Below are positions 347 to 35,569 of a DNA stretch of 64,000 bases, piece by piece. The notes below the pieces were generated by a model. It was not told the origin of the DNA, ran no database searches, and worked only from the letters and a program-made list of their open reading frames with translations. Position 1 is the first letter of the stretch. Each line of letters starts with the position of its first letter. A program made the position numbers and the translations under genes. Source of the stretch: Mesodorylaimus sp. YZB2_4 (lineage: Eukaryota > Nematoda > Enoplea > Dorylaimida > Dorylaimidae); NCBI GenBank assembly GCA_030248295.1, contig JASANH010001481.1:248001-312000 (forward strand), given 5' to 3'.

Positions 347-1672
347 GCTCCGTTCGACTTTTCCTCGACGACCAGGTCATCCATTTGGAGGAACCTATTC
401 AAGTGAAACCAGAAGAGACTGAACTGACCCTCAAATGCGAAAACTTAAAAAAAATCCCGATTGCCGTTTGTGCCGTGTCGGGAAAGAAAACAACGGTAGT
501 GGTCGCTGGAGAGCAATGTACAAATACTGGCATCAAATTTAAGATCGAGAAAAAGTCTTTTAAAGAAGGAGTAGGCGTCTACAAGCTGGTTTGCAATGCA
601 TCTGATAACGCTTTAAACGTGCAGTTATCGGCGCTGCTCGTCGTTGTGGGTAAGTTTTTTAGCTTGGCCTTCATCCCTTTTTAAAATGCACTTCTTGGCT
701 TTTTGAAGACTCAAAATTACTCGTAATGCATGGGGTGGAAAAAATGGTTGTATTTTGCCACAATGCAGGAGTTTAGCTTTTTAATTCGCGCACTAACTTC
801 ACTGAAATGTTTGGTTGAACGCGGGACATCGTGACTTCTTAAATTCTCTTTAAAATCACCCAAAGTCGACTAAAGTACCAGTCCAAAATACTGATGCATT
901 TTCAAGTTTTTGTGGTCTTAAGGTTTTTGGAGATCCAAAAACTATTGGGGTGTCTGTCCTGCCTCTGTTTCCTCAGTGCGCAGAGCTATGGAACAGGGAA
1001 AGGGCATCCCCATTCGTTCATGGGTCGTCAGGGAGTCCAGTACTCACCAGCGGCTGGTGACCCTTTATGGAAATCTATTGCTGGCAGCCAGTCTGCCTAT
1101 TCACTTGCTGATCTGGTGACAATGAGCCCGTGCTTGCCGGGGGGGGGGGGTGAATTCCCCCAACGAGCGATAATCCGTCTCTTCCACGAGCGGGATTCTA
1201 ACTCCATTTTCTATGACCTGAGTATGAACAGTATCACAGGACAGAGTATCTGTTTGGTTACAGATGTACCCCTGACAGTACGTTACTCAACTGAAGCAGC
1301 AGATGAAAAATCAGATAGCAATCCGGACTACTTTAAATTGAACGCATATCTGCATTGTTCAATCAAACTATCAAGTTTCTCCGACGGCTTTTTGATCAGA
1401 TATTCGTGGGTCAATAAGACTGATGAGACCATTACAGTAAGATGCATAGTTTCCAAGATATACTTTTTAATAAAATTTGATTTTTTAGTATGAGGGACAG
1501 ACGCACAATATTGGTTTAGACCGTGGTGAACATTTATGTCGCGTTCAGGTATCATATAAAACGTGTATTCCACATCGAGAATTTTCAGTCCAGCTCGAGA
1601 CCAAATTTGATGCTATTATCATTCCATCAGATGGAACTGGAGGTGCCGAGCAAAACATGATATTGAAAAAAG
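347..1672 (+). CDS. Unit 0 (partial): exons E1, A1, B1
   Basis: Exons are E1 347-649, A1 1264-1436 and B1 1489-1672 (660 nt, 220 codons). E1 carries the E signature ending GVYKLVC and a hydrophobic final strand. A1 has Cys, then RYSW. B1 has LDRGEHLCRV followed by YKTC-PHREF, so A1 plus B1 restore one Ig domain. The donors are GTAAGT, GTAAGA and GTAAAC. The C and D exons of this unit must lie to the left. The E1-A1 intron (650-1263) holds a run of G at about 1140 and nothing else I recognise. Confidence 0.85.
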
Positions 1673-4600
1673 GTAAACTGGTCATAATTTTCACTTTATT
1701 TTGTAATTCACACACAGCTAAACAGTCGACACATCGTCAGTTCTTTCTAGTGCGTCGCATGATAACACTCTGTTTTAATTTTCTAGTCGATTTAATATTT
1801 TACGATCGCTTTGGAGATCCCGTACAAGTTATTTACTCTGGCGGTCATGCTCGAATCAATTGCATAGCGCATGAATGCATTCCAGAAGAACATCTCATTT
1901 TGCAACTTGATGGAAAGAACACGATGGAGATGGAATGCGACCCCAGCAATAAAAGCGCCAGTTTCATAATCCCAAACGACGAATTTTCATTGTCTGGCAA
2001 ATACAGTTGTGCTTACGGCGTGGACATTGTCGAAGTGCCCAGAGTGCATGCTCGATTTTGTAAGTTTACTAGTCATGATCCAAAGGTTGAAATGTCAGAA
2101 TAGTCAGAATAGCCAAGTCCGCTGTTTGTACTGTTCTGTGGCCATTTTATATGTGTCGCTCAACATATAAGAAGGGTGCACCCACACTCGAATGGTCATT
2201 CTCATCTGCTCATCTTACGTGAAGACATCGTTTCTTTTGATCAGTGCCTTTAATTTCTGCTTTACATTTCAGGCCATCCTACCAGCGAACAATGCCGCAA
2301 ACTTGAAATGTCAGTTTCGTGCCCTGACAAGTTCTGCGTCGAAGTTCATGACCCAGATGAGGGTCATGCGAACATCCATGAATGCGAATATATTCCCTCC
2401 CAAAATCATAGCTGCCCTCCCAATCAGATGTCGAGTCAGATATATTGCCCCACAAATTTAACGAGTGTTTGCCATTCCATGCAAAGTGATTCTTATGCGA
2501 AGACTTCCGCCCAATACGCAGGCTCGAGTGCCACTTGTCCGGAAGGTACGCTCTTCAAATTACTCGGATCTTTCATTTTTTTATATGAAACTATTCTTAG
2601 CTGTTCCCGAAGCTTCTTATCAAGGCAAACCGCTATATTTTGGCGAGTACGTTCTGCTGAATAGCAACGAATCTGAACTCTCTATTAAATGTCCAGACTC
2701 TTACAAGGATCCTCTGGTGTGCATTTTGAAGGACGTCGATGGTAAAGTGGGCCAGCAGTCGGACGCTCCTTGCCCAAACTCGAAAATCAGCATTGTGCCT
2801 GATATCTTTGAAAACGGACCTGATTTTTATAAGTTAATTTGCAATGATGCTGCGAATGGGGTTCGAATGGAATATTACTTAGTTGTTGCAGGTAAAATTG
2901 AGTGTATTTTATTCTTGTAGTTTTTAAGTGCGGATTCATTTCATTCAAGTTTGACCATACTATCAAATTTTTTTTATTTGATCATATAATTATCATGTAG
3001 GCGGGAACGTCATGGCAAGGGCGGCTGATATCAGCTCAGAGAATTCTGTCTTTTATTCAGTTCTCCCTTAGTTTTTACGCTTAACATGCTAGTATACTGC
3101 AAACATGAATTTTATTTTGAGAAATCTCACTGCCAGCTTTTTTATGCTCCACAGCATTACGTCGACAAACGAGTTGCAAAATGTGTAAGGGAGCAAATTT
3201 TCATATTTTACCCCGTTCTTTCTGATTATCTTTGAATTTTTCCTGAAAAATTTCCAATCTTCACGAAAATTAATGGGTAATGTTAAATTTATAGGAAGAA
3301 CAATTTCGCAAAATATATTATTTCACCGTCCTGCGCACACTTTTCAGACAAGGGCATCGACATGTGATGCTGTGATATAGGCAGCGTAGGCAAGCGCGCG
3401 AAATATGAAATTTTTGCGCAGTATAATGTTTGAGTTTTATTCACCGTTTTTCTCACATTTGTTAAATAATGGCAAGTTGAGACTTATTTTAGAAGACAGG
3501 CGAACTAGCATCCAATAACAAAAAAATCAATTTTGTCCAACAGTTAAATTTAGGGTCATAAGTTTTTAATCCATGATTCGACTTTAGTGCTTAAATGGAC
3601 GGCTGTAAGCGAACCAAATAATGGACGTGTCATGTGTCTCTATGATCCACCTGGTCAAGAATTTATTGTTGACGTTGTCTGGGTGAAAGAAGGCGAGACT
3701 AAGCCGATAGCGGTATGGTTTTTTAATTCAGCCGAAAAATCCTCTTACTTGTTCTTATGTTTTAGACGGACAATATCCTTCTCTTGAAAGACCTTGAGAT
3801 TGGCAAGTACGAATGCCATATTAAGCTGCAGTACAGATCGTGCACTCCGTACCAAGTCATTGAATCTGTGTTCATTGAGAAATATGAGTACACCGGTGAT
3901 GTTCCACCACCTCCTGACCAAGGCTCATCAAGCGCAGCTACAACTACAACTACAATCACAACGACCACCCCAATGCCGTTGGGACTGAAAGGTAAGGCAT
4001 TGGCTGCACCACGCAAATCTCACCTGGGGGATTTTCGACTTTTACTGCAGGATAACTGGTTCTATTATTCCTTTTTTCTTTGGAATAATGTCTCACGTTA
4101 AATTGGTGGTAGGCCCCAAATCATGACAGCTAAATTTTGGCCGGACCATTTTTTAAAATCAGTTAAAACAGGTCGAAAAATACTGTAGGATTGCAAGTTC
4201 CCACTATTCCTGTTTCAAACTTCAGTGCTTGCAGACTTTGCTGTATAGACAAGCCTTGGATAGGAAAAACTCGGCACGATTCCGGTGGCCGGTGGGTCGG
4301 CAAACGCCTAACCCGCCTGCCTCGTGGACTGGTGGGTTAGGCGTCTGCCTCTCACGCCAGGTGCGCAGTTACGAGCTAGTGTTCGACTCGCGGGCCGGTA
4401 AATTATTTGTTGTAAAATGTGTCCCTTCACCCTCTAGTGCGCAAAAGCGTTTGGTGATGTGGTAAAACATGATGATTAGTAAAAAATGCACAAAATTTTG
4501 CGGATCCCAGACACGACAGCAATAAGGCTGAACTACTGAACGCTCGCCGTGGGCTGCGATTTCCTGTTGTCTTCTAGGTTTGACTTGATTGAAAGCTGTT

Positions 4601-7600
4601 TAGCTGAAAGCTGTTCTGGCATACCAACTTTGTTGCAATATCAAAATCAGGAGAGCTCGGCTACTACTGTCCGCCATTTCCATATTAGCTTTGATCAGGC
4701 AGTAATTCTCGAGATAGCGAGCTGGGAACTTCACTTGCTGTTTTGACCAAAGTATTGAGCGATGTATTTCAGGAAACAATTACTCAGGCAGGTTTTTTTT
4801 ACTCAGACAATTACTCAGGTTTTTACCGCAGGCAAGTTCAGCTGTTTGTAGCAAGCAAGTCAACCTAACCTGGAATGTCGTGTGGCGACTTTTGGGTTGG
4901 GGCAGTTAAACTAGACCCGATCAGGGGCCTAATTGCTGGGAGATTATTATATAAGCTCCAGATTCATATGTTTCATGTTTAAGTCTGTCTGCCAACATTT
5001 TTGCCGCGCCAAACAGTTTTTTACTGCATAAGGAGTAGTGAAACTGCTGCATGTTTCATCGATAACAAGCTTGGCTTGGCAGCAAACAGCAAAGTCTGAT
5101 GACCTGCTGTATCGCACTGCTACTGTATATTCCTTCCTACTGTATGTACCATAAGGCCTAATGAAAGTCGGGTGCACTTAGGCCTGCGGAAAAACGTTTT
5201 TCCGCCCTCGCCGTTTCTATCTAACGTTTCTCGAATTTTTTAGCGATCTAGTATGTTGATCGGTGAAGGAAAGCTCAAATAGGGCCTTCTTGACGCAGAA
5301 AGTTCAGATAAAGCATTCTTCCTAACAGGTCTGCTGGCAAACATGGAAGTGACATGAGGATGCCAATATTTTCTTCAGTACTGGTATTGATTATCAATAA
5401 ATTTGTGTGCCATTGCCCATACGATCTAAAAATTCAGACAGATCTACTGTACGAATTGTCCCTGAAGTCAATTCAGGTTATCGTTAAAAATTTCGCGAAA
5501 AATCGCCCAAAAGCGGTGGCACAGCGACTTTTGCCCACTCGCGCCCATCGCACGCCAGAGGAGGGGACCGACTGATTGTGAGTATTATTAGGCCCCGAAG
5601 GTTGAGCAGCAGGGTTTCAGGTTCATAAGATGGATTTTACTGGTTAAAATTTCCTTGTGCCATAACCTTTTTGAGGTTCTGTCTTGTAAATACCTGATGA
5701 TGGACAGGTCAGGTAGTATACATTTGGCTGGCTGTACACCTACGTAGACTGCATACCACGACCCTGCATCAAATTTGGTAGCATTCTGCTTCACCATTTC
5801 TTATCTCATGTCATTATGACTCTGTCATTTGATATTTTGCCAAATTTTACCGATATCGATTTCATTGATTTTTGCAGGGAGAGAAGTGATTGTTGACGCA
5901 TTCGACACTGTTGTGGAAGTGTTCTATGGAGATGGTCGAAGATATATCATTTGCGAAGTTGACATATGCGTCAGCACACATTCAGTCATGCACTTGATTG
6001 AAGATGGAACAGTGACGGCTGAGCAAACATGCGATAACCAGATCCTGGGCAGCATGGAATTCAAGGGGACTATATTCCAAACTTCCAAACGATTCGTCTC
6101 CACGATCCAGTGCAAATATTTGTACGAAACAGCTAATGTCGTCAATATTACGAAGGCTGGATTTTGTAAGTTTTTGGGTCAAAGTTTGGGAAAAAGGGGG
6201 TAATTTTGCGGGTGGTTTCATTCACGACAGCGAGGTCAAGAATTTGATTTAAAGGGAGAACCACAAGCTGTCCGGGCTATGCGCGCACCAACTTTGAGGA
6301 AAATCATTAGCGCCTGACTTTTAGGCCACGACCAAAGCATTGAATGCGAGAGGGAAACTGAGTGCGGAAAGGATAAATTTTGTGTGGTCGAATATGAAAA
6401 AGCGACGCGAAAGAGCAGCACAACGTCGTGTGCTTTGATTAGCAAAAATAAGGAATTCTGCCCGTCACGAATAAACCATGTTTGTTCAGCGGGATTGGAC
6501 AACTTGTGTCTCGCTATTCAGGCGGGACAATACGATACCTCGTTTATGGTGAATCTTGATCGAATGTGTCTGAGAGGTATAACTTTTTGACATGTCATCA
6601 CTAATGCTATTCTGTATAATGCCCCTTCATTTATAGTCTACTTGACTCTGCTGTCCAACGACAAGCCTGTCCTGTTGAACGAACCCATTCAGTACGTATC
6701 TGGCACAACACAACTGGCTCTGAAATGCCCTGATAATGCAGATGATGACAAAGTCAAGTGCACAGTGTTGACTATCAATGAAGAGAATGACATCGACGAA
6801 ATCACATGCAAGGCAGGAAAGAAAATGAGTCTGCAAATAAGCGATGACTTTTTCAAGGAGGGAATCGGTTTGTACAAATTGATGTGCACAGTGATCGAGT
6901 CAGGAGAGAATGAGGGAGCTGGAGTTGCAGCCTACTTGGTCGTACTTGGTAAGTTCCACCAGCGTACAAATCATGATTGCGCGTTCTTGCAGCATGCTGA
7001 AAACTTTCTAACCTCCCATTCACAGGGGTGAAACATTTTAAAAAACGACTGCTTGCATGATTTTTTTCATTTGAGCTCAAGCTAGTAGAAGTGAAGCAGA
7101 TTTTAGTCTTTTTCATCCTCAACTATTCACAAATGTTTGTGTTTTAATCTACAGTGATCAGGTCTTAGTGGTATCTGCCATGCTGTGCATAAACGCACGA
7201 GCGGCGAGCACGCCGCCAGATTTGCTGCTGGTAGCTTTCTCACATGTCAATTTGCAATAAGAAGTCACAGGCGCTAAATTAAAAAACGTGCTCATCTAGC
7301 TGCATTTATGGGCCACGTGCTGATATATAATGTGATGGGGTGCCATCAGTGGAAAAAGACCTCCCTTTATGATCTCTACACTTTTTAGACAGCCCGCTTC
7401 ATGTCTCGTATGAAACAAAATCCGCGCGCAAAGTTGTCACGCCGAATTCGCACAGTACGGTTGATGGTAAAACAGACCCTTCTGACCATGTTACGACTGA
7501 GGGTCTTCATCCAACAAATGCTACTGATACAGCGATTAATGGCACCGAAGTCAGTACTCAAGCTGCTCTCAATGAATCTCACAGTCACACGCTCTCACAG

Positions 7601-10600
7601 CCAGACTCCTCGGCAACATTCTCTCTGCCCGATGCTAGTCCTCCTGACGCTAGTGTGAGCGCTAAACGCCGTCTCCGACGAGCTGTGACAACGTTGTCGG
7701 CCTCTGATGGATCGACCGAGCCTCAGTCGCATAGTCCAAGCAAGGATACGGTGGATTTCATTCCTCACAGAGCCGCTAAGACCATTTCCATTGCAGAGTC
7801 ACCCTCTGGACCAGCTGACAGCTCCAATGATACAAGTCCTCAGTCCCCTGGTACAGGACCATCCTCTGGCGCGACCGACATCTTCATGAATACGAGTCCT
7901 CAAACCGTAGGTTCAGGGTCACCCACTGGCCCAAGCCACAACTCCAGTGATGCAGATTCTGGAACTACTGGCTCACAATCGACTGGTGAATACAACTCTG
8001 CTGATACAGGCTCTCAACAGACCACAACAGGCCAGCAACTCACCACTTCCAATGCTGGAGAGGAAGTCGCTGTTGACGCCTTCATTAAATGCTCAGTCAA
8101 AATAGCTCACCATAGCATCGACAAAGGTTTCAGTGTTACTTACAGTTGGATCTTACTGGAAAACGATACATCCAAGGTGACAGGCTTTTTTTTTGCACTT
8201 TGGTTTTTCTTCCTGCCTAGACTTGATTTTCAGGACCATCAACTGATAGGAATTGGAGAAGACCGTGGCATGTACCAGTGTAAAGCCAACGTGACCTACA
8301 AAACTTGCGCTCCCCATCGCACATTTAACAAAGAGCTGAGCATCACATTCAACGCAAGTCTTATCCCTGCAACAGAGATTAGAAAACCTGTGGCCGCTGT
8401 TGAGGGTAAACTTCTGCTGCAGTAATCCAGGCGTATTAATCCTTAGCGTATCCTTCTCTTCTAGGTTTTTACCAAATTTTTGACGAATTTGATGATGTCA
8501 CTGACCTGTTATTCCCTGGAGGCAAGACTTCGTTAGTATGCGTGGTGTCTGAATGCACAGCTGGCCAGCAGATTGTGCTTCGTCAAGTTAGCAGCAATGT
8601 TGTGCACCAAGAAGGTTGTAAAGTCGACGGTCCAGTTAACATAACAGTCAACATTTCAAATAAGGATGTGGCGCTGGACGGTTACATTTGCGAGTATAAC
8701 TCAAAGACAGCGCCAATCCAGCTTCCTTATGTGAAATTCTGTAAGTACTGTAACGGGTTTTTTTCTCGGCTTTTTTATTGATTGGATGAAGCCCTACTGT
8801 ATGTATATTTACTTGTGGCAAGGCTGCTAGAGTCAAGATAATTATGCTCACATTGGATCTCGACGCAAGATCAAACTGATCAACACCAAACTTGTGATTC
8901 ATAAAGTGCTGCCTCGTGGCGAAGTTGTTCTTATCTGTGTTGTCGGCGTCTTTTTTTCTCTTTTTGGGAACGATGGATAAAATTTGGTTTAATTTCCCTT
9001 CAATTAGCGACCGGCATTCCCCACAGAAATACCGTAATCTTCAGTTTCAAATTCATCCAAATTTTCCAATCTTATCAGAAACTTGATTTTACTCACTTGC
9101 TTGCTGACTCGCCTTGCTGGCGAATCAGAGTGTACGAACTGGTTGTTGCATGGATACACTATAGGCGCATGTAGTGCATCTATGGGTTGTTGGCGCCAAA
9201 CTGGCGCTGCCTAGTCTACAGGCCACTTTTCTTTTCCTTCAGGCGACCACATAAGCCCAGAATGTCAGTCTCCCGCCAGCTGCTCGAATGACAGCGAGTC
9301 GTGTCTAGTCATCTACGATCCAAATTCGAAGCAGCTCGAGACAAAGAAGTGTGCTCACGTGCCCGAGGGTGAGCAATACTGCCCGCAAGATCAGGAATAC
9401 AAGGCCGGCTTGATTTACTGCCCAAGCGGAATAAACAGCACATGCGCCGCATACCAAACTGATTCCTTCCGGCAAATCACTGCTCGATACTCTTCTCACG
9501 ATTTTAGTTGTCCTGTAGCGCCAAAACGTAAGGAGTGGTTTTTCCAATAGCTTTTTAATCTTTTCCATTCTCTAATCCAAGCATGTTCCAGGCCCCGAGA
9601 ACATAAGTTACCAAGGCACTGTGATGTATCATCGTGAATATTTTGGACTGGAGAAAAATGAGCCTACCATAAGCGTATCATGCGGACGAGGATCACGTTT
9701 CCATAAGCAATCGTTCCGGTGCGTTCTGCTAGCCGAAGGTGGGACTAGATTCCAAGAATTTCGGGTGTCTTACTGTAATCTGAATGTGAGATTGGCAGTA
9801 AATGAGAGAATTTTCGATCAACCTGGCCTCTACAAATTGCGCTGCTTTTTGGATACAAGTCCAAGCGATGTGCACTTGGCCAACCACATTGTAATAACTG
9901 GTAAGAATTATAATTGAGAGAGCTAAACGGAGTGATTGATTGCATGATTTTTTTAGAAAGTCAAATCCAATTCAAACATGGCGCAGATGGCGAGGTTAGA
10001 TGTCATCCAAGAGGAATGGGTGCTGATGCGCGGTTCATAAAGACAGTACATTGGACAAGAGAGAGCGATGGAGTACAAGTCGGGGTAAGAACAATCCTAA
10101 TCACCCCATCCTGAGGTTGTTGACATGTGCGTGGTAAAGCTGGTTCATCTGAGCATTCTGAGTAATTTTATCAATGAGCAATATGAAGAAATCAGTTCGA
10201 CTTCGTATTGGTCGCTGCCCAGGCCAAAATAATTGGGTTTATAATTAGGTCAGTCATTAGTACAGTAATGTCACCGAGAGAGCAATCCGTCATGTCGCAG
10301 CATGAGTTAAGCTTAACTTATTAGACACATATGATCAAAAAATCAGTTTTGTGGTAAAACTGATCTCTGACATATATGTCTGATCAGTCGCTTTGCATAA
10401 GCATCCATTCGCCATCAGCTGAAATACTGGATTTATCAGCCATCAGTGATTATTTTGATTAGCAGTCGATTGCGATATATGCTGATTCGTGCTTATACAG
10501 GTCGATCGATCGATCGATCGAATATCGACAGACTAAAGCTGGATAGATCAATATCGATATAGGTGGGTAGTTTGATAAATATCGGTGGTATCGATATCGA

Positions 10601-13600
10601 TCAGTGCCATCCAAACCAACATTGGTTTGCCACTAAATTAATGCTGTCATTGGACGAACACATCCACGCTTTGCACAGTTTTCGTTTTAAGAACGGAGAA
10701 AAACTGATGAAAGAAGATCTCGTGCTTGGTGACACCTACGTGTGCCATGCTGTCATCACTTACAAATCGTGTACTCCCCACAAATTATTCTCAACAAATA
10801 TAACAGCCAACTACATCCATTTGACCACAACCGCTGGTCCCTCGACTACCTTCGGCGTACCGATAGACTCCACGACAACTGACGGAGGGACAACCACACG
10901 TCCAGAAAGGAAAGGACTGTCAGGTAAGCTCTGAAATGGCAACAGCAGACTCATTGTAGTTTGCGCAGGAGCACTTGTAACTGTTATCACTAAAAAATTG
11001 GAGCGCTGCAAATATGCCTGGCAGAGAATGCGACCTACAGAAGGCAAGAAAACTCCAATTGGAGTAAGACGCCTCGCAAATAGTTGTGGCTGAAACATCA
11101 ACCCGATGGGTGTTGACGTCTCGCAACCAGTGGAGAGTATCGATTATATCTATTCTCTCCAATGTGCCAGGTCCGCCAGGCAGTGAGGTCACTAGCGCTG
11201 AGCAAAATTCACAAAGGTTTTTAAAAACTCCAAGAGGCTCTGGTCGTGGCCTAGTGGTTGAGGCGTCTGCCTCTCACGCTGGGTGCGCACTTACAGGAGT
11301 TCGACTCCCGCCTAGTTAAAATATGATTGTCAAATATGTGTTCCTTAGCCCTCGAGTGCGCTGTTTGGTGCTTGGCTAGGGATAAAGTATGGCATGATCC
11401 CATCGCATCGACTGCTCGCTCCTTGACCATGTCTTGTCTGGACGCCAATCTTTCGATAAGACGGTCTTAGGAACCCCCGGCTCATAAGGTTGGCGCGCCC
11501 ACCAGTGTACGTTCGACTGGCGGCCTGGTAATGTGTCCCTCCCCTCAAGCGCATCTGCGTTTGGTGTTGTGGTAAGACAGGATCAGGATTTAACCTCAGA
11601 GTCTTTCGATCAGGGTGAGTCTGGGAGGCAGGGCATGGGTCAAAGTGAAGATTCACAAAAGGAAATGTCACATCCCTGTTTGGCTTTCATGTTTCAGATG
11701 GACATTATAAACAGTGTCATTATGTCGTCATTCATTTTTTTAGGCTACATCCGTTTCTATGACCAATTTGGCGATCTCACCCATATGCCAGTGGCCCAAG
11801 GAAAACAAGAAATTGTCTGTCTTGTGGAGTGCATGTCCGGCGGATCAATCACCCTGAAAGCCGTTCCGGAGCTCAACGGCATGTTATGGGAGGAACCTTG
11901 TGATAGCGCTTTTGGTGGAGCAATATTCAAAAATCTTGAGAAGGCGCAAGAAGCTTACGTCGCCAGTTATTTCGATCATTATGTTTGCGAGTACGACAAA
12001 TTAACACAATCCATCGAAATGCCGAAAATGCGCTTTTGTAAGCGATACGTACTTTTCTATTTGCTGCTCTGCCAGGGGTCCTTTTTGCGACTTGGAGTCG
12101 CATGCGACCGTTTTGCGACGGCAACGAAAGCGGTTGCGCAGTTGCGCACCACTACGCCATCTTTAGCCAATGCCTGAAACAATCTGATATCAGCCCATAT
12201 CAGATTTTTATATATCTGGGATAATTCTAGAAGTAACTTTATTCATTTATCTTTCCTTTTTAGGTAGCGACACGAGCGTGCAATGCACGGATGAAAGTTG
12301 GTGCGATAATTACGATTTCTGCGTGATTGCACCACAGCCGCAGAATGGACGCGATAAAACTGAATATAATAAATGCGCTAAAATAACTGATTATCCGCGA
12401 GACCAGTTATGTCCGAGCCATAACGTGGATATGAACTCAAAATTATGCCCTCGTGGTGAAACGACGCTCTGCGAAATGCTTTCTGCAACTTCGTACGCCT
12501 TGGTAGAACACTTTTATACGGACAAGGATTGCCCAGCTGAGAAGTGTATGTTTCTGTTTTTTTCCCGAGCTCCCGCTGGCTGAGCACTCGACGATCCTTT
12601 GAGGATTAACCAGCCCAAGCATAAAGTACTGTGCTAATTACAGGTCCGTTTTAGACACGGAAACGATGCTGTACGAGAACCAACTGGTCTACTATCACGA
12701 GACCATTCTGTATTTGAACAAACCCGGCAGAGAGCGCTTGGGCCTCTTGTGCCCAGTTGGATCGCCAGGTTACGGAATGGATGTTGAATGTGTGATAAAA
12801 AACACAAGTGGCGACGTTGTTAAACAGCTCAAATCAAAATGCCTGGTCAAAGTTGACTTTCCAATTTCTCTTCCTTCAATCGGCTCTTCTCTTCTCAAAG
12901 TTGTCTGCACATTCAACCCACGGAAGCCAGTCTCGAGATTGGCTGCCTATATGGCTGTGCTGAGTAAGTGCAGTTCGTGCTTCCTCCTTTGTCGCTAGTT
13001 TTGGAGTGATAAGCTTGAAGTGGTCTGACCAGAACAATATATCCTTGCAAAGTTCAATAAGTCCTTTGTAATTTTGATAAGCCATCATAAACATGATATT
13101 TTCCTGCCCCAGTCCCAACAGATCATAAGGATGCGCCTTCGAATTGAACCAAATCAGCACCTTTATGCAATCCGCAATAACTCAAACCTTGCCGATATGA
13201 CCACTTCCGCCTATCTCATCAGTTTATCACCACTTTTATCATATTTTATCCTTTATCACTGTGCTTGATAAATGATGCAAGACTAATAAAAATTTACGGG
13301 ATTGATAAGGCTGCACGCAGGGGACTGTAAGATACCAAATGTAAATGGGAAATCTTATCATTAGTCGAATGCCTGCATACAGTCATGCTGGTACCAACCT
13401 GGCAATCAAAAGCGCCTGAATTAAGCTGCAGTTAAGCATTCATTTTGTGCAAAAATACAAACAGCATCCAGATGACCTAACCAGCTTGCGATTCAAACCG
13501 TATAGCCAAATGTAACATGGAGGACATGGCCTGACCGAGAAACGGCGCGTTTGAAACAAGATTTGAACACTTTTCGAAAATAGTTGAAGAACAGCAGAAC

Positions 13601-16600
13601 TAGTGGTTGTAGAGTCCGATTAGGATTAGTGACAAGAAAGAGAAAACAGTTGCGAAGTTAGACATGATAAAGGAGTGCTTTTTGATATTTTTGCTAAAAT
13701 CTGCCTTTAGAGGAAAGATACATAGCTTTTATGCGCAGGTCAACAACGATTTTATAAAACAAGCTAGCTTGAGTGCAGGTCATTTGACATCCTTACAAGT
13801 GATGCACCATCCTATCCGTACATCAAAGCGAAATGGCCGTCCTAAACTGGGAAATACTCGATGTACGTGGTAGTAAAAGTGACTTGGATTACGGAGGTAC
13901 ATGCTGAAATATCTGCCACACGCAAGCTCAGAAATAATCGTTTATTTTCTCTTCAATCTTGTTTCGAAGTTTTTAAACGAAACTAGCTCTGGTTTTCATC
14001 TTCCAGGCAAATTTCCACTTACATTCGGTTTTTATAGCATCATTTCATCACTGTTTTTTTTAAATTTTTTTTTCCTGCTTGGATATGAGTTTAGATAAGC
14101 AAGAAGTCAGTCAGTTCAGGCGTGTGACATCCACCTACCAGGTGCTTGACGCGATCCACGGATGGCCCCTTAGCAACTCTTCGACAAAAACCAGGTTCTC
14201 TCTTGCGGTAAACAACAACTTTCAAATCCTCTAAAACTCCATATCCATATCTTTTTATCGATATCTTTGACGTAAAAAGATGTAATATGGATATGGATAT
14301 CCATATCAACAGCAGGTGAAGTACAGTATGTGGATGTCACCACTTCTCATCCACATTTGCAGAGGCGCTGGTCACTGCGTGCCATGTATGGATATGTTGA
14401 AGACGGCGCACTTGCAAAGCTTCCCGCCTTTTTTTAATTTAAAGTTCTGGCGGTAAAATACATCTGTGTTTTTTGCTACACATGGTTTAAAGTTATTTTT
14501 CCCTTTTTCGCTAAAACTGTTGGTTGAGAAACCTGCTTTCGACAATTTACTCGTTTCCTCAAAATGTCGTCTTTGGCATAAGGGGTTCCTTCTCTCTCTC
14601 CCCCCCCCCCCCCAACCACTCTAATTGCTTATAAATACGCCTGCTCATGCTGCATAGCACTCTTATCTTATCGCCCCTTCGATTTCAGTACCAGCTTCGA
14701 TTCGCCTCCGAAAAATGACTGACGAGGAAATTGCTGAAGCAAAACAGAAAAATCGGGCTTTTGATAAACCGGAATACACAACGGGAGTAATTTGCCGAGT
14801 GACACCGGAAGTAGTGGAAGCTCCGTTTACACAGAGGATCGAAATTGAAAAATTAGCGGTTGGAAAACAGAAGGGCGAAATACATGCAGTATGTTTGTGG
14901 AATATTTTTTCTGTTAGCCGTGCAAATCGCATAAACCCTACTCATCGTCCTCAGGCATCACATCTCCGACCCCCGAGATGGATGCGAATACGAAATTGCT
15001 CTGTCCTACCAGGTTTTTCCACCTTCGAGCTATGAATACCGGCAATCATAATATTCTGCTCCCTTTAAACCCAACCCTAATTTTACCTTTTTTTAAATTG
15101 CCGCCTTTCAAGAAAATCGGGTGCGTGTGTAATGCACGGCTAACAGAAGAGTGCAAGCCCGAACTTTTCTTAGAAGTATACACTACGGCCAATTCGTTGC
15201 AGGGACACATTCTTCTGCTGACTGAGGCTGATGAGGCATTCGAGTACAGGTGTTTGGTTACAATGTCGTACAAGACGTGCTCGCCGTATGATTTTTACAA
15301 CCACACTTCTTCAGCTTTCTTCAGTTTTACTGCAACGATACCAACTGGATCCACCGAGACGCAGATGACAACGACGCAGAGTGGTTTCTGGATGAAAGGT
15401 GAGGCACTTACCTTATCTTTGTTTGATAAGACTGATATGCACTTTGTGAGTGCTTCGCGATAAAAATGTCTCATATGGGTCCGCCAAATGTAAGTATCGA
15501 AGTAATTGGGAAGTGATTATGATGTTTGATAAGGGCATGATGTCTACTATACTGCCGTAGGGTTGCGTGCGGATATGCCAAAGTGCAGTGATAAGGGTTC
15601 ACCAGGTCAAAAAGGGTGATGACGGACCCCTAATCAGGACCAGCCTGATGTCGATGATAAGTATCTCTTCGGTGCATGAGAAAAAGTGCTGTACCTACTG
15701 TATATCCAGTAAGGGCCAGCTCAATGCTGAGGGATAAGGGTGTTTAGTAGGGATCTGACCACTGATAAGAGTGCCCGGTGTTGGTCGTCTAGCCGATGAT
15801 ATTGGTGTAGGGGATGGGATCCCACAGTTAGTTCTACCGGCTGGGTGGGCCAAACTTTCTTATCATGGCTTCCTGTCGCCTTATCAGTAGCAGTCATCAA
15901 GTAGGTTTAATGATCAAAATATCAACCTGCAGGTAACCTCTCGGGACTGGGACGTGCTCCAAGTTTCTGCCACTTCCCACAGTTTAAAAACTTGTTACCG
16001 TATCAGTACTTTATCAGTGCTGTCTTATCACAAATCTTGTCTCTTTTACAGCTTACGAACTCAATATCGACCGATTCGGTGACCCAACTGATTTGTTCTA
16101 CGCTCAAAACAAAAAACTTATTTATTGCGAATTGAGCGAGTGCCAGCATAACGTCATGATAACTTTTGTTCAGGACGGGTACATCGTCGAGAGCATACCA
16201 TGTGCCCAGGGTGACCGCCAGAATGATAGAGTTGTGTTCGAGTTCGATCCAAATTCATATTCGAATTGGAGCGAGTCATCAAATGGATTCCATCAATACG
16301 AATGTCGATACGGCATTATACACACCGAATACGTCTTACCCTCAACCATCACTTTCTGTGAGTATTGCTAGGACATGTCCTAATAAGGCCTTAATTTGGC
16401 GACTGAAGGAACAAATGTGCAACAAAATTTTTCAATTCTTCAACCAGTTTTAATTCTGCTTGACCCTTTAATCAAAAATATTCAGCGGATCCATCTTTTA
16501 GGTTAGGAAAACCCCATTTGAATTTCGCGCGCTTCTTATAACATTGTGACGCGGAGACGGCACAATGCCTCCACGCGTCGCGTGCGCGTTTTAAAAAACC

Positions 16601-19600
16601 GACTGCAAAAAATAATGCAAAAGCTTTTAGAATGTGCCTTAAACTGCAAATTGCGCAGTAAATTGAGGATTAAATATTGCGCCTATTTAGGTGAAAAAAT
16701 TCAAAATTAAGACACCTTACCAATAACCAAAAAAACAACTTTTTGAGTTCTTTTGCATCTTGAAACATCCATCAAGGATTGTCATCGGCAGAAAATCCTT
16801 TACCTTTGGAATCTGTGCCATTCATCCGCTCACTTTTTCCAAAAATTTTGAAATGTCATACTAGTTAATCGACGGCGTGGGTGTAAATTTTTGTGTTTCT
16901 ATAACTAAAAGAGCCTAATGCGCCAAAGTGTAAATAATTTGTGTCTACAGTAAAAAACTGCCAAATCCTGTTGGTTGCCAGACACTGTTCGAATGGACTG
17001 CATTTTGAATTTGTACAGTTAGTAAAGCAGCTCAGTCAGAAGTTTCATGGTGACACCATGAAGTCAATTTTTCCAGGCAATGATTCAAGCCCTGAATGCA
17101 AATTTTCTCGATGCGAGAGCGAACAATTCTGCATTGTTGATCACATCGCCAAAACCACAAAGGACTGTTCGAAACCACAGTCATCCCAATGCCTATCATA
17201 TGGTCAGGACGACAGCTCGTTTAAGTCCACGTTTTGCCCGATTGGAACTAAATCACTTTGCGAAGCAGTCAGTAAAACGTTTGCTGGAGCCAGGTCTGAA
17301 CATCTCAGGGTGCAGGATGGATGCCAAGGTAAGATGTGTCGGGCTGGCAGTCTGATTTACAGTAGACTAAGCTTGGAATAAGAACATCGCTGACTTCGTC
17401 TGTGCGAGGTGGTCGAAAACATGGCGGGAATATTTTAATTTTGGCTTTTGGAAAGTTGAAGTTCGGAAAGGATCATTACGAGAGATATGAAGAAATTGAA
17501 ATAACTGCATTCATAAGTAACACTATGCATGATCTTTTGATCAGCCACTTGACAAAACTAAGCACCCAGTATCCCTGATCCGCGTTGGACTGTTTAACTT
17601 TTCCGATGGTTTTTTCATTTCTCACCAGCTAAAAAGCATAGACCACTTCAATCATTCAAGACATGTCCTAAATTTTAGGCTATTATAAGTCCTACACTAT
17701 ATTGATCCCCATAAGTTTGACGTCCTGGTGATGATTGCACCGCCAAAACACAAACCAAGGCAGCTGAATGTCATGTTTGAAAAAATCACTGCACTTCAAC
17801 TTTTTTTGGCGACTTACCCATTAGTAATTCAGACAAGCACAGATTCTTGCACAAAATCTCCACTCCGAGCCAGGTTCAAAATGATCTATACGAGGTATTT
17901 TAGCTTATGAACAACTGAGTTACGCGAGTATTGATCGAAACTATCAGGATTATGTTGAATTGATTCGAAATGATCGAACAGCCGTCATCAAATGTCCCCA
18001 AGGCTCGCCTGGCCATCAAAAACCCATCAAATGCCACGCCAAACGAGTTGGTGGCGAAGAATTGTGGTCGTGGCCATCTACGGAGCTGCAGTGCGCAGAG
18101 GAGACCAGCATTGAATTGCCGGACATTTCTGATCACCTGGAACTAGTCAAACTCGTCTGCAACATAAATGACGAAGGCTCGGGTGAACCCATCACAAGAC
18201 TGGCTGCTCATCTTGTCGCCCTTGGTATGCCTGTCATGCGTGGAAGATAAGGGGCCATCCATAAAGGTCGATCGCAGCCTGGGGGGCTAGCATAAAGTGG
18301 TCAGCTGCGGTTGGGAAGGAAGAGGGTTTAGGGGCCAATGGTCGACCCCAGCCTGGGGGGGGGGGGGGGGGGGGTCTAGCATAAAGTGGTCAGCTGCGGT
18401 TGGGAAGGAAGAGGGTTTAGGGGCCAATGGTCGACCCCAGCCTGGGGGTGGGGGGGGGGGGCTACCATAAAGTGGTCAGCTGCGGTTGGGAAGGAAGAGG
18501 GTTTAGGGGCCAATGGTCGACCCCAGCCTGGGGGTGGGGGGGGGGGGGCTAGCATATAGTGGTCAGCTGCGGGTGGGAAGGAACAGGGATTAGGCGCCAA
18601 TGGTCGACCCCAGCCTGGGGGTGGGGGGCTAGCATAAAGTGGTCAGCTGCGGTTGGGAAGGAAGAGGGTTTAGGGGCCAATGGTCGACCCCAGCCTGGGG
18701 GTGGGGGGGGCTAGCATAAAGTGGTCAGCTGCGGTTGGGAAGGAAGAGGGTTTAGGGGCCAATATGGTCGACGGCAGCAAGTTTTTGAATTTTTGATGAC
18801 AAAAACACCTTTTTATATTCGCAAGTAGTGCGCGCTCGAACCTTAAAAACTTTTTGTCTTCTTTTCTTAATTATTATCTTGTTCAAAAAGTCATAAAAAA
18901 GGTGTCAGAAATTTCTCGGGTCGGGTTGGGTCGGCTTTGGGTTTTGGATTTTAGGTCTCGGGTACACTTTTCTTAGCCGATGTCGGACCTGGGTTGGGAG
19001 GCGATGGCTCAGTTGGTTAAGGCGTTGATCTCGCATCGAGTGGGTCAGCAACCCTGACTTGGGAGGCCGAGGTTCTATTCCGACGGAGGACGGTAGTAGC
19101 TTGTCGCTGGCCTTGGACACCTGGCTCTGGGCGACTCCCCCGCTACTGCCAAATTGCGGACACCCACTCAAGGAGTACAGAATTGGGAAACTGCTCCTAG
19201 AACACCAGGCGGGTAGGTCCCTCCTTCTTATCCAGTATGCCCTCGTGTGGAGGTGCTCCTTGAAGATGTCAGAGGAAACCTGCAGTGAGAGCTGGTCACC
19301 TCACAGCCCCGCTTATCATATCATGACTGCTGGCCAGCTACAGTAATAGGCGAAACGGGTTGAAAGTCCCGTTAAGAACTGGCGCGGCGCGGCGCAACCC
19401 ACAAAACTTTTTAAAAAATATGGGAAAAAGTTGTGGGGAATGTTCGTAGAGGCCTTTACAAAAAAAAATCCATTCCATGAATAAAAAAAACACCTTCGTA
19501 GAAGAAGGCACCTTGTCAAGCTCAAAAAGCATAAGATGGAACATTTTACAAAAGTACGTTGGAAAAGTTCCGGACGGCGCCTAAGGCGGGCCTGCGTAGT

Positions 19601-20836
19601 CGTAGTTACACTTTACATGCAGGTTTAATGCCCAGTAGCCCCACTCTTTTTGTGACTTTTAGCCAAGTTTATTCTTCAGCAGGGAAAGGATGGATCCTGG
19701 GTAGGATTCAGTTTTTGTTTCGCAGGTTTGATCTTTGAAGTTTCGATTGGGGTTCGAACCCTCGGGCAGCCAAATTTTTTAGGCTTTTTAGATTATAGCA
19801 AAGTGCTGTTTCTAGACGGATTCCTGAACATAACTGCGAGTGTTGATAGTCAAACTAACAAGAAAACATTGTCTTGTTTCTTCGATCCACCACCAACGAG
19901 TGATTTCTCAGTTACATATCAGTGGACTGCGAAAGATGACAAGACACCACTGGCAGTAAGCGCATGTTTCTCTGCACTTTTTAGCGGGCTCCAGTCCAGT
20001 TTATATTCAGGCTGGCAACAAGCTGGAGGTGGAAGCTAGTGATACTGCTAGCTATGAGTGCCATGCCAGCGTTCTCTTCAAAACGTGTTCGCCGTTCAGA
20101 GAATTCTCGAGAGAGCAAAAGCAGTTGTATGAATACGGTACCATTATTACAAGACCAACGCCATCCCCGACACCTGGTGACAGTAAGACACCTTTTTCCT
20201 GGCGAGGATGACAGCCTTAGATCAGCCAAAACAGCTGCTGCCAGGGAATTTTGTTTATCGTCTAATCTGGTGATAAACAGTGCTGATCATGGATGCTGCA
20301 CAGGCTGTATCACTGCTGTGCTTATGTGGCCACACCGTTATCGCACCTGTGATAAGGGACGGTATCAGTCACGTGATACTGATGATAAGGGACGGTGTCG
20401 CAAATCCCATTCAGATGATAAGGGCGGTATCACATGCTGTGCCACTGTTGTGCTGAAGTAACTACATCCTATTATACCCTATGATAAGGCGCGGTATCCC
20501 CCATTGGATATTTAAGGTGATAAGGAACGGTATCGCATACGTGGCACAGATGATCAGGGTGGTATCATCCATGGAATAGAGAAGATAAGGGGCAGTATCG
20601 CGTACGTGAAAAATCCTTATCCAGCCCTTATCACTACCATTGTGCAGTCGCCTTCGAAGAAATGCCGCACCGAATCCCTGTTTCAGCCTCAACAAGCCCA
20701 GTTTCGCCAGGAAGAGTGTCAACAAGTCCAACAACCCGAGGTCCACCTCCGGACCCACCTGTCACAGAAACATCTCCACCACCACATGGTGAAGGAGGGC
20801 ACTCATCCCCTGGGGCTCGAGCCACGCACTTCTTTG
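347..20836 (+). CDS. Giant tandem Ig/Cys-rich cassette protein (partial, 29 exons in window)
   Basis: This is one large gene built from a repeated five-exon unit, C-D-E-A-B. Exons C and E each look Ig-like, with paired cysteines and a late Tyr-x-Cys or Tyr-Lys-Leu-x-Cys strand. Exon D is an eight-cysteine module. Exons A and B together form an Ig domain: Cys, then Trp in A, then a D-x-G-x-Y-x-C type strand in B. All 29 exons join in frame with constant phases (E to A 1, A to B 0, B to C 1, C to D 1, D to E 1) and total 7,575 nt (2,525 codons). N-glycosylation sequons and cysteines point to an extracellular protein. The start codon and signal peptide are left of the window. The product is probably a cell-surface or secreted adhesion or recognition protein. 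A single-unit relative with a transmembrane helix lies at 52.9-58.6 kb. Alternatively it is several genes, but I see no signal-peptide or membrane exon between units. Confidence 0.85.
1787..3991 (+). CDS. Unit 1: exons C1, D1, E2, A2, B2
   Basis: Exons are C1 1787-2059, D1 2273-2545, E2 2601-2891, A2 3588-3712 and B2 3766-3991 (396 codons). C1 begins with FYDRFGDP and closes with KYSCAY and a terminal RFC. D1 shows the typical eight-cysteine spacing with YCP before the sixth cysteine. E2 has FYKLIC. A2 is short, with a Cys and VVW. B2 has LEIGKYECHIKLQY and then a Thr-rich tail of about 20 residues before the junction to the next C exon. C1 has an alternative acceptor at 1750, but that would add an unrelated stretch. 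Intron 2892-3587 contains nothing I recognise. Confidence 0.87.
3992..5877. other. Intron B2-C2 (1.9 kb) with a SINE-like insertion
   Basis: No exon of the cassette type is seen in this stretch. It contains a tRNA-like element around 4290-4465, listed separately. The remainder is unrecognised, AT-rich sequence with short repeats of the type AGGCCTAA. Confidence 0.6.
4290..4465 (+). mobile_element. tRNA-derived SINE-like element, family 1
   Basis: A box A-like stretch (TGGTGGGTTAGGCG) is followed by GTCTGCCTCTCACGC and a box B-like GTGTTCGACTCGCG, then a tail with AATGTGTCCCTT and GTTTGGTGATGTGGTAA. Head and tail recur at 11235-11400 and the tail at 11520-11585, so this is a dispersed family. 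It does not fold as a functional tRNA, because the acceptor stem does not pair. Confidence 0.6.
5878..8405 (+). CDS. Unit 2: exons C2, D2, E3, A3 (mucin-like), B3
   Basis: Exons are C2 5878-6165, D2 6325-6576, E3 6637-6948, A3 7389-8176 and B3 8234-8405 (604 codons, the longest unit). C2, D2 and E3 are ordinary; E3 has GLYKLMC. A3 is 788 nt instead of the usual 125-200 because about 200 residues rich in Ser, Thr, Pro and Gly precede the Ig half. These include roughly 21-residue repeats of the SPQSPGTGPSS type. A basic site KRRLRR, which fits furin-type proteases, lies near the start of that region. The Ig half of A3 (CSVKIAHH, then YSW) and B3 (DRGMYQCKANVTYKTC-PH) are intact. Confidence 0.87.
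8465..10923 (+). CDS. Unit 3: exons C3, D3, E4, A4, B4
   Basis: Exons are C3 8465-8740, D3 9243-9527, E4 9592-9900, A4 9957-10084 and B4 10692-10923 (410 codons). C3 starts GFYQIFDEFDD and contains DGYICEY. D3 has the eight cysteines with YCPSG. E4 has GLYKLRC. A4 contains a Cys and VHW. B4 uses an AAG acceptor (TTTTAAG) at 10691; it has GDTYVCHAVITYKSC-PH and a Thr-rich tail. Intron 10085-10691 contains GATCGATC iterations at about 10503-10520 and repeated TATCGATA motifs; intron 8741-9242 holds nothing recognised. Confidence 0.85.
11089..11170 (-). repeat. Fragment of dispersed SINE-like family 2
   Basis: Read on the minus strand this matches the 3' part of the element at 37564-37780: a CTGGCGG, GAGA-TCGATA-CTCTCC, GAGACGTCAACC core. 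It also carries the widely dispersed GCTGAAACATCAACCC motif at its end. It lies in the B4-C4 intron. Confidence 0.5.
11235..11400 (+). mobile_element. tRNA-derived SINE-like element, family 1
   Basis: This has a very clear box A (GTGGCCTAGTGGTTGAGG) and box B (GAGTTCGACTCCC), spaced as in a tRNA with a variable arm. Then comes a tail with TGTGTTCC-TTAGCCCTCGAGTGCGC and GTTTGGTG. The flanking arms do not pair, so it is a tRNA-like head and not a tRNA gene. A second partial copy of the tail lies at about 11468-11585. Both lie in the B4-C4 intron. Confidence 0.65.
11744..15398 (+). CDS. Unit 4: exons C4, D4, E5, A5, B5
   Basis: Exons are C4 11744-12037, D4 12264-12545, E5 12655-12963, A5 14689-14888 and B5 15203-15398 (427 codons). 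C4 has FYDQFGD and HYVCEY. For D4 I chose the downstream donor GTATGT (after 12545) because it keeps phase 1. In E5 the usual YKL strand reads LLKVVC. A5 keeps its Cys, but the usual Trp of the Ig C strand is not visible, making it the most divergent A exon. B5 has EAFEYRCLVTMSYKTC-P. The E5-A5 intron is long (12964-14688) and contains several TGATAAG-like motifs at 13040-13360 and a C run at about 14600. Confidence 0.82.
12964..14688. other. Long intron E5-A5
   Basis: No cassette exon is found here. Between about 13040 and 13360 there are several GATAAG or CTTATC motifs. A pair of near-palindromic GGATATGGATATCC-type stretches lies at about 14240-14310, and a C homopolymer at about 14600-14613. 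I see no gene. Confidence 0.55.
15399..16051. promoter_or_regulatory. Intron B5-C5 with a cluster of GATAAG motifs
   Basis: About ten GATAAG or CTTATC hexamers fall within 650 nt, for example near 15427, 15520, 15589, 15653, 15733, 15763, 15861, 15877 and 16001-16030. In nematodes the intestinal GATA factors ELT-2 and ELT-7 bind TGATAA-type sites, so an intronic enhancer is possible. The spacing is irregular, so a decayed tandem repeat is the main alternative. Confidence 0.35.
16052..20182 (+). CDS. Unit 5: exons C5, D5, E6, A6, B6
   Basis: Exons are C5 16052-16357, D5 17077-17328, E6 17904-18224, A6 19792-19955 and B6 20011-20182 (405 codons). C5 has IDRFGDPTDLFY and FHQYECRY. D5 has the cysteine spacing with FCPIG. 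E6 has ELVKLVC. A6 keeps Cys and YQW. B6 has ASYECHASVLFKTC-PFREF and a short TPSPTPG tail. For A6 I use the second of two overlapping acceptors, at 19791, which preserves phase 1; for B6 the acceptor at 20010 restores the Ig frame. Introns 16358-17076 and 17329-17903 hold nothing recognised. Confidence 0.85.
18267..18773. repeat. G-rich minisatellite, about six copies of an 80-95 bp unit
   Basis: Six copies of GTGGTCAGCTGCGG occur at about 18297, 18388, 18472, 18560, 18638 and 18720. Each is followed by GAAGGAAGAGGGTTTAG, GGTCGACCCCAGCCTGG, a G run of variable length and GCTAGCATAAA. Units are nearly identical, so the array is recent. The G runs cause the length differences. It lies in intron E6-A6 of the large gene. 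Confidence 0.95.
19001..19330 (+). mobile_element. tRNA-derived SINE-like element, family 2
   Basis: Box A GATGGCTCAGTTGGTTAAGG and a box B-like GAGGTTCTATTCCG lie about 60 nt apart, followed by an unrelated body. The head resembles the element at 37564. A second, isolated perfect box B (GGGGTTCGAACCC) sits at 19749-19762, just upstream of exon A6. Both are inside intron E6-A6. Confidence 0.55.
20183..20647. repeat. Intronic degenerate tandem repeat with GATAAGGG-CGGTATC core
   Basis: The intron between B6 and the stalk exon contains about seven copies of a 40-60 bp degenerate unit with the core GATAAGG-(G/A)-CGGTATC, at about 20350, 20382, 20415, 20481, 20520, 20552 and 20584. Each holds a GATA-type site plus an inverted TATC. 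It could be a repeat, an intronic enhancer, or both. Confidence 0.75.
20648..20836 (+). CDS. Stalk exon of the cassette gene (Pro/Ser/Thr-rich)
   Basis: Phase 1 in and phase 1 out, 63 codons. It begins AFEEMPHRIP and continues with Ser, Pro, Thr and Gly-rich sequence (VSPGRVSTSPTTRGPPPD and similar) with no cysteine. It sits exactly where the single-unit gene at 52.9-58.6 kb has its Gly/Ser/Pro linker exon, between the last B exon and the membrane exon. The acceptor is TTGTGCAG and the donor GTAAGA. I read it as an O-glycosylated stalk near the membrane. Confidence 0.7.
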
Positions 20837-21085
20837 GTAAGATCATGTTCTGCCCTGAGTCTGTGCCACAGAAAGCGGGTAGGGGTATGTTCCAGTGCAT
20901 ATAGACCTGAAGATAGAGATAGGACTACCCTCTCCGTTATCGGTAAGAGCATGTGCACGTACTTACATACTACACTGTTGCATCCGCCTGCGGTGACAGG
21001 TAGCAAAAAGCTGTTTGACAGAAGAGAGAGATGGATTGCCAGTGGCAAAGATGAGTTAGCCCTACCTTCCCCCCCCTGCATTTAG

Positions 21086-21281
21086 TGGTCGCTGTAGGCC
21101 TGTGTCTGCCTCTTCCATTGCTACCGCTCTCTCTACCCGCTTTCTGTGGCACGAGTGCCGAACCCGTTTATTTCTCACTTTTCCATTTCCAGCCTTCCAG
21201 TACATCTGCTCCGCTATATCGGTGCTGGCCATGGAATTTTTCCTGAAGTGCGTGATGGCCGCGGCCAGTGGTCATTTCTAG
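21086..21281 (+). CDS. Candidate terminal exon(s) of the cassette gene, unresolved
   Basis: Two overlapping phase-1 exons would each end the protein with a hydrophobic segment. One starts at 21086 after CTGCATTTAG, encodes VVAVGLCLPLPLLPLSLPAF and stops at 21246. The other starts at 21193 after a stronger acceptor (TTCCATTTCCAG), encodes YICSAISVLAMEFFLKCVM and stops at 21281. In the related single-unit gene the exon after the stalk is a transmembrane helix, so a membrane anchor is expected here. I cannot choose between them, and both could be spurious if the real exon lies further right. Confidence 0.3.
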
Positions 21282-34013: not shown

Positions 34014-35569
34014 CTAATCACACTGCCCGCACGATCGACGACATTGGGTGCGAGTTTGTTCTTGATTGCATCCACCGGCGAGAGCTTGAGTGCCACATTC
34101 GGCTGTTTGGTCCGTGCAAGTCGAGCAGTACATGCGTTTCAATTGGAGTATATCGTTGGGAGTCAATGTGTTGCCGCCCATCTTGGGATTCTCAGCTTTC
34201 AATGCTTTCATGGTGGGCAAGCCCCCTTCTTTAGCGGCGGCGCCATTTGCGTAGTGCATTATCGATTGATAGTCGTACGGAGCCCCATAGGACGTGGTGC
34301 CATCTTGTATTTTAAATTGATCAGCATAGTCAGGGTGGATATTCTTCCACAAAATCTCGACGTATTGGTTCCGATCCGTGCGTGATTGCTCATGGCCGCC
34401 GCCCAGTGAGTGAATGGTTTCGTGGATGACTGTGCCCCTTAACGCATCGTCAACGCAGGTTTCGTCTTTTTCTGCTTCAATACCTATCACGTTTATGCCA
34501 ACATGCCCCAAATTTGACACACCACCACAACCACCGCCGCGTACTTGGTACTGGATTTGTGAGCCAGTCTTGAGGGGAGCATCGTCCTTCTGGAAACGAA
34601 TGCAGGGCACAGCTTGCGTCATTAAATCTAGCGCTTCGTCGAAATTTTTCTGTTGCACTGGGGTCAAAACTGTGGTGTTGACCCAGTACCGGATTGGCAT
34701 TTTCCATAATGAATCAGGTTCCTGCTCCAAATGAAGCGAAGCAGCACGCTTCGCCCTGCCCTGTATTTGGTCGATCATAGCTTGAGCTTGTTCTTTCGTC
34801 AAAATTATATCGCCCTCAAAAAGACCGTCGTCAGCGGGCGGAATTTCAGGGATCCCCATTTCGGCGTGGATGAGAGTTTTCAGTTCTTGGACCTTTTCAA
34901 GCAGTTCTTCAACTCTTTGTCCCGCCTCCTCCTCATCCAGGCCTTCTTCGAATTCCAGTTCATCCACCAACAATTCCTTAACTTCGTTTCTTTTCTTCTT
35001 GAACTTCTCAGCATTGGCGTCGCATCCTCCTGGTTCATTTTTGCAGTTTTCCTGAAAAAGAAAGTCCACCACTTACTCCTTGTTTTTTCTTTCACATGGA
35101 CTTTGCTTTATTATAAAAATCGACTTTTTCGTTGCCAGCTACACTTCCTGATCATGGTTCCTGCTGCTTTCACAGTAAAGTCCCTTGGCGCTTTCACATT
35201 TTTAAATTCACATTTTTAAATGTGAAAGCGCCAAGGGCTTTCCTATTTAACACAGTTTTCACATTTTTGAAGCTACACATGCTGCGCAGCACTTACTAGT
35301 ATTTCAGGGCAAGCAATTTTTTCCAACCCCTAATTTTTAAATTTCTAGACTGCACACATATTCTAGCGTCGAGGGGCCAGGCCCGCTGACTGCAACATCC
35401 GGCAGACTGAGAATCAGCGAAAACGAACAAAATATTCAAGAGCACTTACTAGCAGAATTTGTTTGATCTCGTCAGTGATACCATACTCGCTTCTAAATCT
35501 GAGTCTTTGACTGTTCGTCAAATACGATTGGGCCAATAACAAGCAGCCGATGACAACAGCAAGACGCAT
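34014..35569 (-). CDS. Astacin-family zinc metalloprotease with C-terminal ShKT domain
   Basis: Secreted M12A metalloprotease of 385 aa in two exons (35569-35450 and 35051-34014). Exon 1 encodes a signal peptide (MRLAVVIGCLLLAQS). An acidic, coiled-coil-prone propeptide follows, ending in the furin-like site RAKR at about residues 139-142. The catalytic domain has HETIHSLGGGH (zinc ligands His250, His254, His260; Glu251 general base), SRTDR, and the Met-turn SIMHY with Tyr307. The last 35 residues are a six-cysteine ShKT domain ending CGQCD, a combination common in nematode NAS proteins. The substrate cannot be told from sequence; such enzymes act in cuticle, digestion or matrix processing. 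The intron (35052-35449) contains a hairpin. Confidence 0.96.
35177..35239. repeat. Inverted repeat in astacin intron
   Basis: Two arms, CCCTTGGCGCTTTCACATTT and its complement AAATGTGAAAGCGCCAAGGG, are separated by a short AT-rich loop. This gives a stable hairpin. It is probably the remnant of a small fold-back element. Confidence 0.85.

Follow-up and report, generated by a model that had tools for sequence, protein, structure and literature searches.

The window analysed here is 64,000 nucleotides of contig C97 of Mesodorylaimus sp. YZB2_4 (contig positions 248001-312000, in an assembly of 145 Mb and 1,067 contigs; window position 1 is contig position 248001). It opens in the middle of a giant gene on the plus strand, here called gene 2, which is modelled with 48 exons encoding 3,996 residues. 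Gene 2 runs from contig position 233476 (window position -14524, that is, 14.5 kb before the window) to about 269281, and its predicted product begins with a signal-peptide-like sequence, continues through nine cassettes of about 400 residues each (one of about 600) and ends in a Ser/Thr/Pro tail. Each cassette is assembled from five exon classes in the order C-D-E-A-B. A tandem neighbour upstream, gene 1 (contig 202969 to about 229840), holds five cassettes behind its own signal-peptide-like start. Gene 3, on the minus strand at window positions 56412-58609, consists of one cassette with a probable signal-peptide exon and a linker.

Exon structure of gene 2

Between window positions 347 and 20182 lie 28 cassette exons of gene 2 (6 E, 6 A, 6 B, 5 C and 5 D), ordered as E-A-B followed by five complete C-D-E-A-B rounds. 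All 28 are preceded by AG and followed by GT, and in the splice model they join into one open frame. The window enters the gene in cassette 4, of which it holds exon E (347-649; a predicted Ig-like sandwich with four cysteines, phase 1-1), exon A (1264-1436; the first half of the Ig domain AB, phase 1-0) and exon B (1489-1672; the second half, with a YKTC motif, phase 0-1). Cassette 5 comprises C (1787-2059; Ig-like, with four cysteines and a weak Pfam Ig match below the cut-off), D (2273-2545; eight cysteines), E (2601-2891), A (3588-3712) and B, which carries a Ser/Thr/Pro hinge (3766-3991). Cassette 6 has its C, D and E exons at 5878-6165, 6325-6576 and 6637-6948, then an A exon with a long Ser/Thr-rich insert ahead of the Ig half (7389-8176) and B at 8234-8405. 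Cassette 7 consists of C (8465-8740), D (9243-9527), E (9592-9900), A (9957-10084) and a B exon with hinge (10692-10923), whose acceptor is one of several in phase. The exons of cassette 8 lie at 11744-12037 (C), 12264-12545 (D), 12655-12963 (E), 14689-14888 (A) and 15203-15398 (B), and those of cassette 9 at 16052-16357 (C), 17077-17328 (D), 17904-18224 (E, acceptor placed by eye), 19792-19955 (A, acceptor one of several in phase) and 20011-20182 (B).

A Ser/Thr/Pro-rich linker exon of phase 1-1 (20648-20836) follows. A possible last exon at 21193-21281 would supply a hydrophobic C-terminus and a stop codon; other in-phase acceptors exist, so that the 3' boundary of the gene beyond 20836 is tentative and the product may be secreted or membrane-anchored. 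Introns of gene 2 range from 52 to 3,414 bases. The E-A intron of cassette 9 contains an 87-base minisatellite (18281-18772; 5.8 copies with G tracts), and the last predicted intron a 20-base perfect inverted repeat with arms 250 bases apart (20863-21152), possibly a small mobile element. The gene 2 protein has 44 N-glycosylation motifs.

Exon phases are uniform over the 70 cassette exons of genes 1 and 2: C, D and E are 1-1, A is 1-0 and B is 0-1. Within the window, splice sites were listed in all phases; upstream, the borders were picked using the phase rule, which in part builds the agreement in. The reading frame stays open through the 25 cassette exons of gene 1 and the 45 of gene 2. Openness of all 70 exons in the coding frame is likewise by construction, since exons were located via open frames; more telling is that the alternative frames are open in no more than 3 and 2 of these exons. 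A held-out comparison used profiles built from the window alone. In 50 kb of upstream DNA they recovered 38 of 42 exons in the same order (C 9/9, D 9/9, E 8/8, B 8/8 and A 4/8); the remaining four upstream A exons were positioned by eye and by phase. In 20 dinucleotide shuffles of contig positions 202900-269400, no class reached 22 bits or more, the best chance scores being 9.3-14.1 bits. Some held-out A matches (14.8, 17.0 and 19.2 bits) fall below 22 bits yet exceed the best A chance score of 10.3. This yardstick belongs to the window-only profiles; larger profiles yielded the scores given below for gene 3 and other contigs.

The sequence-only reading of this DNA had described 29 exons (the linker ending at 20836 being the 29th) in five classes with a fixed C-D-E-A-B order, and the AG/GT borders, the single frame and the held-out recovery all uphold it. 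Its claim of one giant multi-unit gene is also supported, but it covered about half of that gene.

Domain identity and cysteine layout

By profile, exons A and B together encode an immunoglobulin domain. Both Ig cysteines are invariant in the AB units of all 14 cassettes of genes 1 and 2, and the tryptophan is present in 12, a pattern that fits the B-strand Cys, C-strand Trp and F-strand Y-x-C of an Ig sandwich. An AB profile matched 30 PDB entries, all Ig proteins by name (best E 0.0011); in Pfam, the six of 14 AB sequences scanned matched no family at E<=0.5. Exon C appears weakly Ig-like. Among all 14 copies scanned against Pfam, two matched Ig_2 (best E 2.4e-5) and one each matched ig, Ig_3 and Ig_C19orf38, and the C profile found four weak PDB matches at E 0.45-0.77, Ig receptors by name.

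The other two modules were modelled from cassette 7 of gene 2. AlphaFold prediction on single modules had been proposed together with the sequence-only reading, and it succeeded in part. The AF2 model of E has a pLDDT of 90.8 and folds nine strands into a beta-sandwich, and that of D is of low confidence (pLDDT 49.5), too poor for a fold search. Foldseek matches of the E model were scattered among Ig, FN3 and MG sandwiches, with no PDB match at E<=0.001, and 13 of the 14 E exons, scanned against Pfam, matched no Ig family at E<=0.1. We therefore describe E as a predicted Ig-like beta-sandwich. D was weighed as a possible member of Ly-6/uPAR or other known eight-cysteine modules; none of the 14 copies scanned found a Pfam family better than E 0.017, and profile comparison with the PDB gave no credible match. 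The modules show no significant homology to one another in profile comparisons of C with E, AB with C or AB with E. Searches of the PDB with a whole-cassette profile, of NCBIfam with four cassettes and of phage records returned nothing, and contig C97 was not among the matches listed for an I-set search of the genome. No recognised enzyme domain, and nothing credible beyond weak Ig similarity, was found in the exons scanned.

Cysteines are laid out almost invariantly. Twelve of the 14 cassettes hold 20, distributed as four in C, one at the C/D junction, eight in D, four in E, one in A and two in B; the junction cysteine, created by the joining of the two exons, is present in all 14. Cassette 5 of gene 1 has 24 cysteines (two extra in C and two in D) and cassette 3 of gene 2 has 22 (two extra in D). 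The Ig and eight-cysteine modules reported earlier are thus recovered as AB, by profile, and as D, by count, and the cysteine signature described for each class is borne out by the 20-cysteine layout.

Family copies, neighbours and duplication history

Genes 1 and 2 lie in tandem. The search for starts was confined to contig positions 198001-209400 and 229700-233760, the fronts of the two genes. Signal-peptide-like exons precede the first cassettes at 202969 and 233476; together with the one-to-one pairing of cassettes between the genes (below), they led us to reject a single gene spanning the whole array at contig 203-269 kb. For the two regions checked, this bears on the earlier proviso that the units might prove to be separate genes. 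The last exon of gene 1 is provisional, since its modelled acceptor is not AG and its frame reads into stop codons.

Gene 3 has AG/GT borders and phases that agree with those of genes 1 and 2. Read along the minus strand, it comprises the probable signal-peptide exon (58528-58609), C (57860-58159; profile score 20.0 bits), D (57316-57555; 15.6 bits, seven of eight cysteines kept), E (56934-57242, with a start at 57242 or 57263; 7.8 bits, unconvincing alone), A (56745-56881) and B (56561-56693), both recognised by eye, and a Ser/Thr/Gly-rich linker exon (56412-56501). Counted on predicted peptides, 14 of the 20 cysteines survive in gene 3. C and E are each short of two, D is missing its first cysteine and B its second, that of the YKTC motif. 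Because the D and B cysteines are the only unpaired losses, this one gene suggests a disulfide between the first cysteine of D and the YKTC cysteine in the last AB strand. A transmembrane (TM) protein with a Cys-rich region and a Thr-rich stretch (window 43567-44562, minus strand) was considered as a candidate 3' terminus of gene 3 and rejected, as a 50% identical paralogue about 140 kb off (contig 150872-152485, minus strand) has the same tail.

Further copies were sought genome-wide with the exon B pattern YK[T/S]C-x-P. It has 16 matches. Genes 1 and 2, with 14 B exons, account for eight; the reversed control has 11, so a match to the pattern by itself proves little. Seven of the eight sites outside genes 1 and 2 were inspected, that on contig C887 being left out. 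At two sites on contig C115, profiles identified E at 38.9 and 30.2 bits, A at 10.9 and 13.8 bits, and B at 30.7 and 26.4 bits; a C module (16.6 bits) comes after one of these sites. Contig C279 has E at 33.9 bits and A at 19.0 bits, a B recognised by eye only and then a long Thr-rich stretch; contig C17 has B at 49.9 bits; and contig C2 has a borderline match at 16.6 bits. The sites on contigs C73 and C169 showed no cassette module by profile. By these matches the family would be present on at least four contigs, with at least three such genes on contig C97.

Several other genes lie near the array. Downstream of gene 2, a 670-residue frame on the plus strand (window 23634-25643) encodes a protein kinase domain (Pfam E 4.6e-55), DYRK-like by eye. 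Two protease genes of astacin-plus-ShK type, 56% identical and both on the minus strand, flank the gene 1 and gene 2 pair (window 34017-35072 and contig 199155-199949). Just upstream of the TM protein, the frame at 44553-44987 resembles, by eye, a von Willebrand A domain in degenerate form; it matches no Pfam family. TTAGGC repeats and Srab chemoreceptors mark nematodes. Contig C97 carries an Srab chemoreceptor (E 2.8e-14), and a genome search for four units of TTAGGC gave 1,893 matches, compared with 1 for the reversed control; both findings fit a nematode origin. Two TTAGGC blocks on contig C15 (246076-246784 and 506545-506994) are some 260 kb apart; at least one is therefore interstitial. 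The SL1 leader had no match with up to two mismatches.

Cassette history was reconstructed from a tree of the 14 cassettes of genes 1 and 2 over 398 columns, after removal of columns in which gaps outnumbered residues and of the N-terminal stretches of long A exons. The tree pairs cassettes 1-5 of gene 1 with cassettes 1, 6, 7, 8 and 9 of gene 2, each with a support of 100, and genes 1 and 2 are therefore tandem duplicates. Gene 2 cassettes 2, 4 and 6 group with gene 1 cassette 2 (support 93), and the gene 2 trio 3, 5 and 7 joins cassette 3 of gene 1 (support 73). The central part of gene 2 would thus have grown through duplication of blocks of two cassettes and ten exons, or else gene 1 would have lost such blocks. 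Ser/Thr/Pro-rich ends occur on cassettes 3, 5 and 7 and not on 2, 4 and 6, so that each two-cassette block ends in a hinge; the ends are shorter in cassettes 8 and 9. Hinges are not confined to block ends, since the long Ser/Thr-rich insert of cassette 6 sits between E and AB. Positional pairs between the two genes are 34-46% identical, and cassettes within one gene 19-32%. The old tandem duplication of very divergent cassettes, already proposed from the sequence, is supported by the tree and by these identities, with the cassette pair as the apparent unit of growth. Between paired cassettes, differences at the first, second and third codon positions amount to 0.455, 0.363 and 0.621 per site (1,958 codons), a pattern of protein-level constraint on average.

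Nature of the product and of the family

Structure and history are supported by the sequence, from which we infer the function. On balance, the gene 2 product is probably a secreted or membrane-anchored, disulfide-locked rod with a multivalent role in adhesion or recognition outside the cell. Behind the signal peptide, nine cassettes of four domains each, C (Ig-like), D (eight cysteines), E (Ig-like sandwich) and AB (Ig), would lead into the Ser/Thr/Pro tail. The disulfide-locked four-domain units would stack into an extracellular rod that can flex at Ser/Thr/Pro hinges, one behind each two-cassette block. Such a rod could mediate multivalent adhesion or recognition in the matrix or on the surface, and cassette number would set its length and its number of binding sites. 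A matrix, surface or immune role had also been suggested by the sequence-only reading, and it has the same inferential standing here.

The product might instead be a purely structural component of matrix or cuticle, with length as the selected trait. The rod-like multi-domain plan, the even cysteine count per cassette, the hinges and the growth in whole two-cassette blocks would all suit such a protein. However, a within-gene identity of 19-32% is unusual for a simple structural repeat, and RGD, the sole matrix-binding motif searched, has a single occurrence in gene 1 and none in gene 2; we consider this alternative rather unlikely. A family of immune or non-self recognition receptors, in which duplication, changes in cassette number and divergence make binding surfaces, is a doubtful candidate. 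It would account for a multigene family with nine, five and one cassettes and for positional pairs that have kept no more than 34-46% identity, and the symmetric phase-1 exons would permit skipping of whole domains. Nevertheless, coding positions are on average conserved rather than diversified, and window-only profiles found no second copy of any exon class in the introns at E <0.5, hence no sign of Dscam-like exon choice. That the array is decaying or mis-joined rather than a working gene is very improbable: the minisatellite and inverted repeat in the introns towards the 3' end of gene 2, together with the six missing cysteines of gene 3, would fit, but the frame is open through 45 and 25 cassette exons, codon positions show constraint and the upstream copies keep the cysteine layout.

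Comparison with known systems places the adhesion or recognition rod among several partial likenesses. CEACAM and complement receptor 1 likewise duplicate multi-domain blocks and are multivalent surface or secreted proteins, whereas the block here joins an Ig domain, an eight-cysteine domain, an Ig-like sandwich and a further Ig domain, with 20 cysteines, in an invertebrate. Hemicentin and DIG-1 combine Ig domains with other known modules. They too are giant nematode proteins, secreted and Ig-rich; in contrast, the present proteins follow a strict four-domain cassette order, and the exons scanned here contain nothing credible beyond weak Ig. Dscam is similarly long, Ig-rich and extracellular with many symmetric exons, and a Dscam-like arrangement of alternative exons was rejected on the intron search described above. 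E is 11% identical to the MG2 domain of complement C3 (residues 129-225), and the sandwich arrangement is likely the sole shared feature. Membership of E in the complement C3 and alpha-2-macroglobulin (TEP) family was rejected, as the GCGEQ thioester motif is absent from genes 1 and 2. A large protein collection queried with the gene 1 protein yielded 3,298 candidates, limited to proteins of about 1,143-3,637 residues sharing five-residue words with the query, and none at E<=0.01.

On a slight coverage of literature and homologues, these appear to be undescribed giant extracellular proteins of a nematode. A bolder and tentative proposal, which we hold to be unlikely in its full form, is a lineage-restricted nematode family with a new 20-cysteine, four-domain superdomain, a new D fold, a D-to-AB disulfide, a two-cassette unit of evolution and a cassette number that tunes the valency of surface recognition. 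D is in any case a domain recognised by no library used here. The nine-, five- and one-cassette genes on one contig record growth by block duplication at a near-fixed number of cysteines, so that both the pattern of disulfides and what cassette number does can be tested directly.
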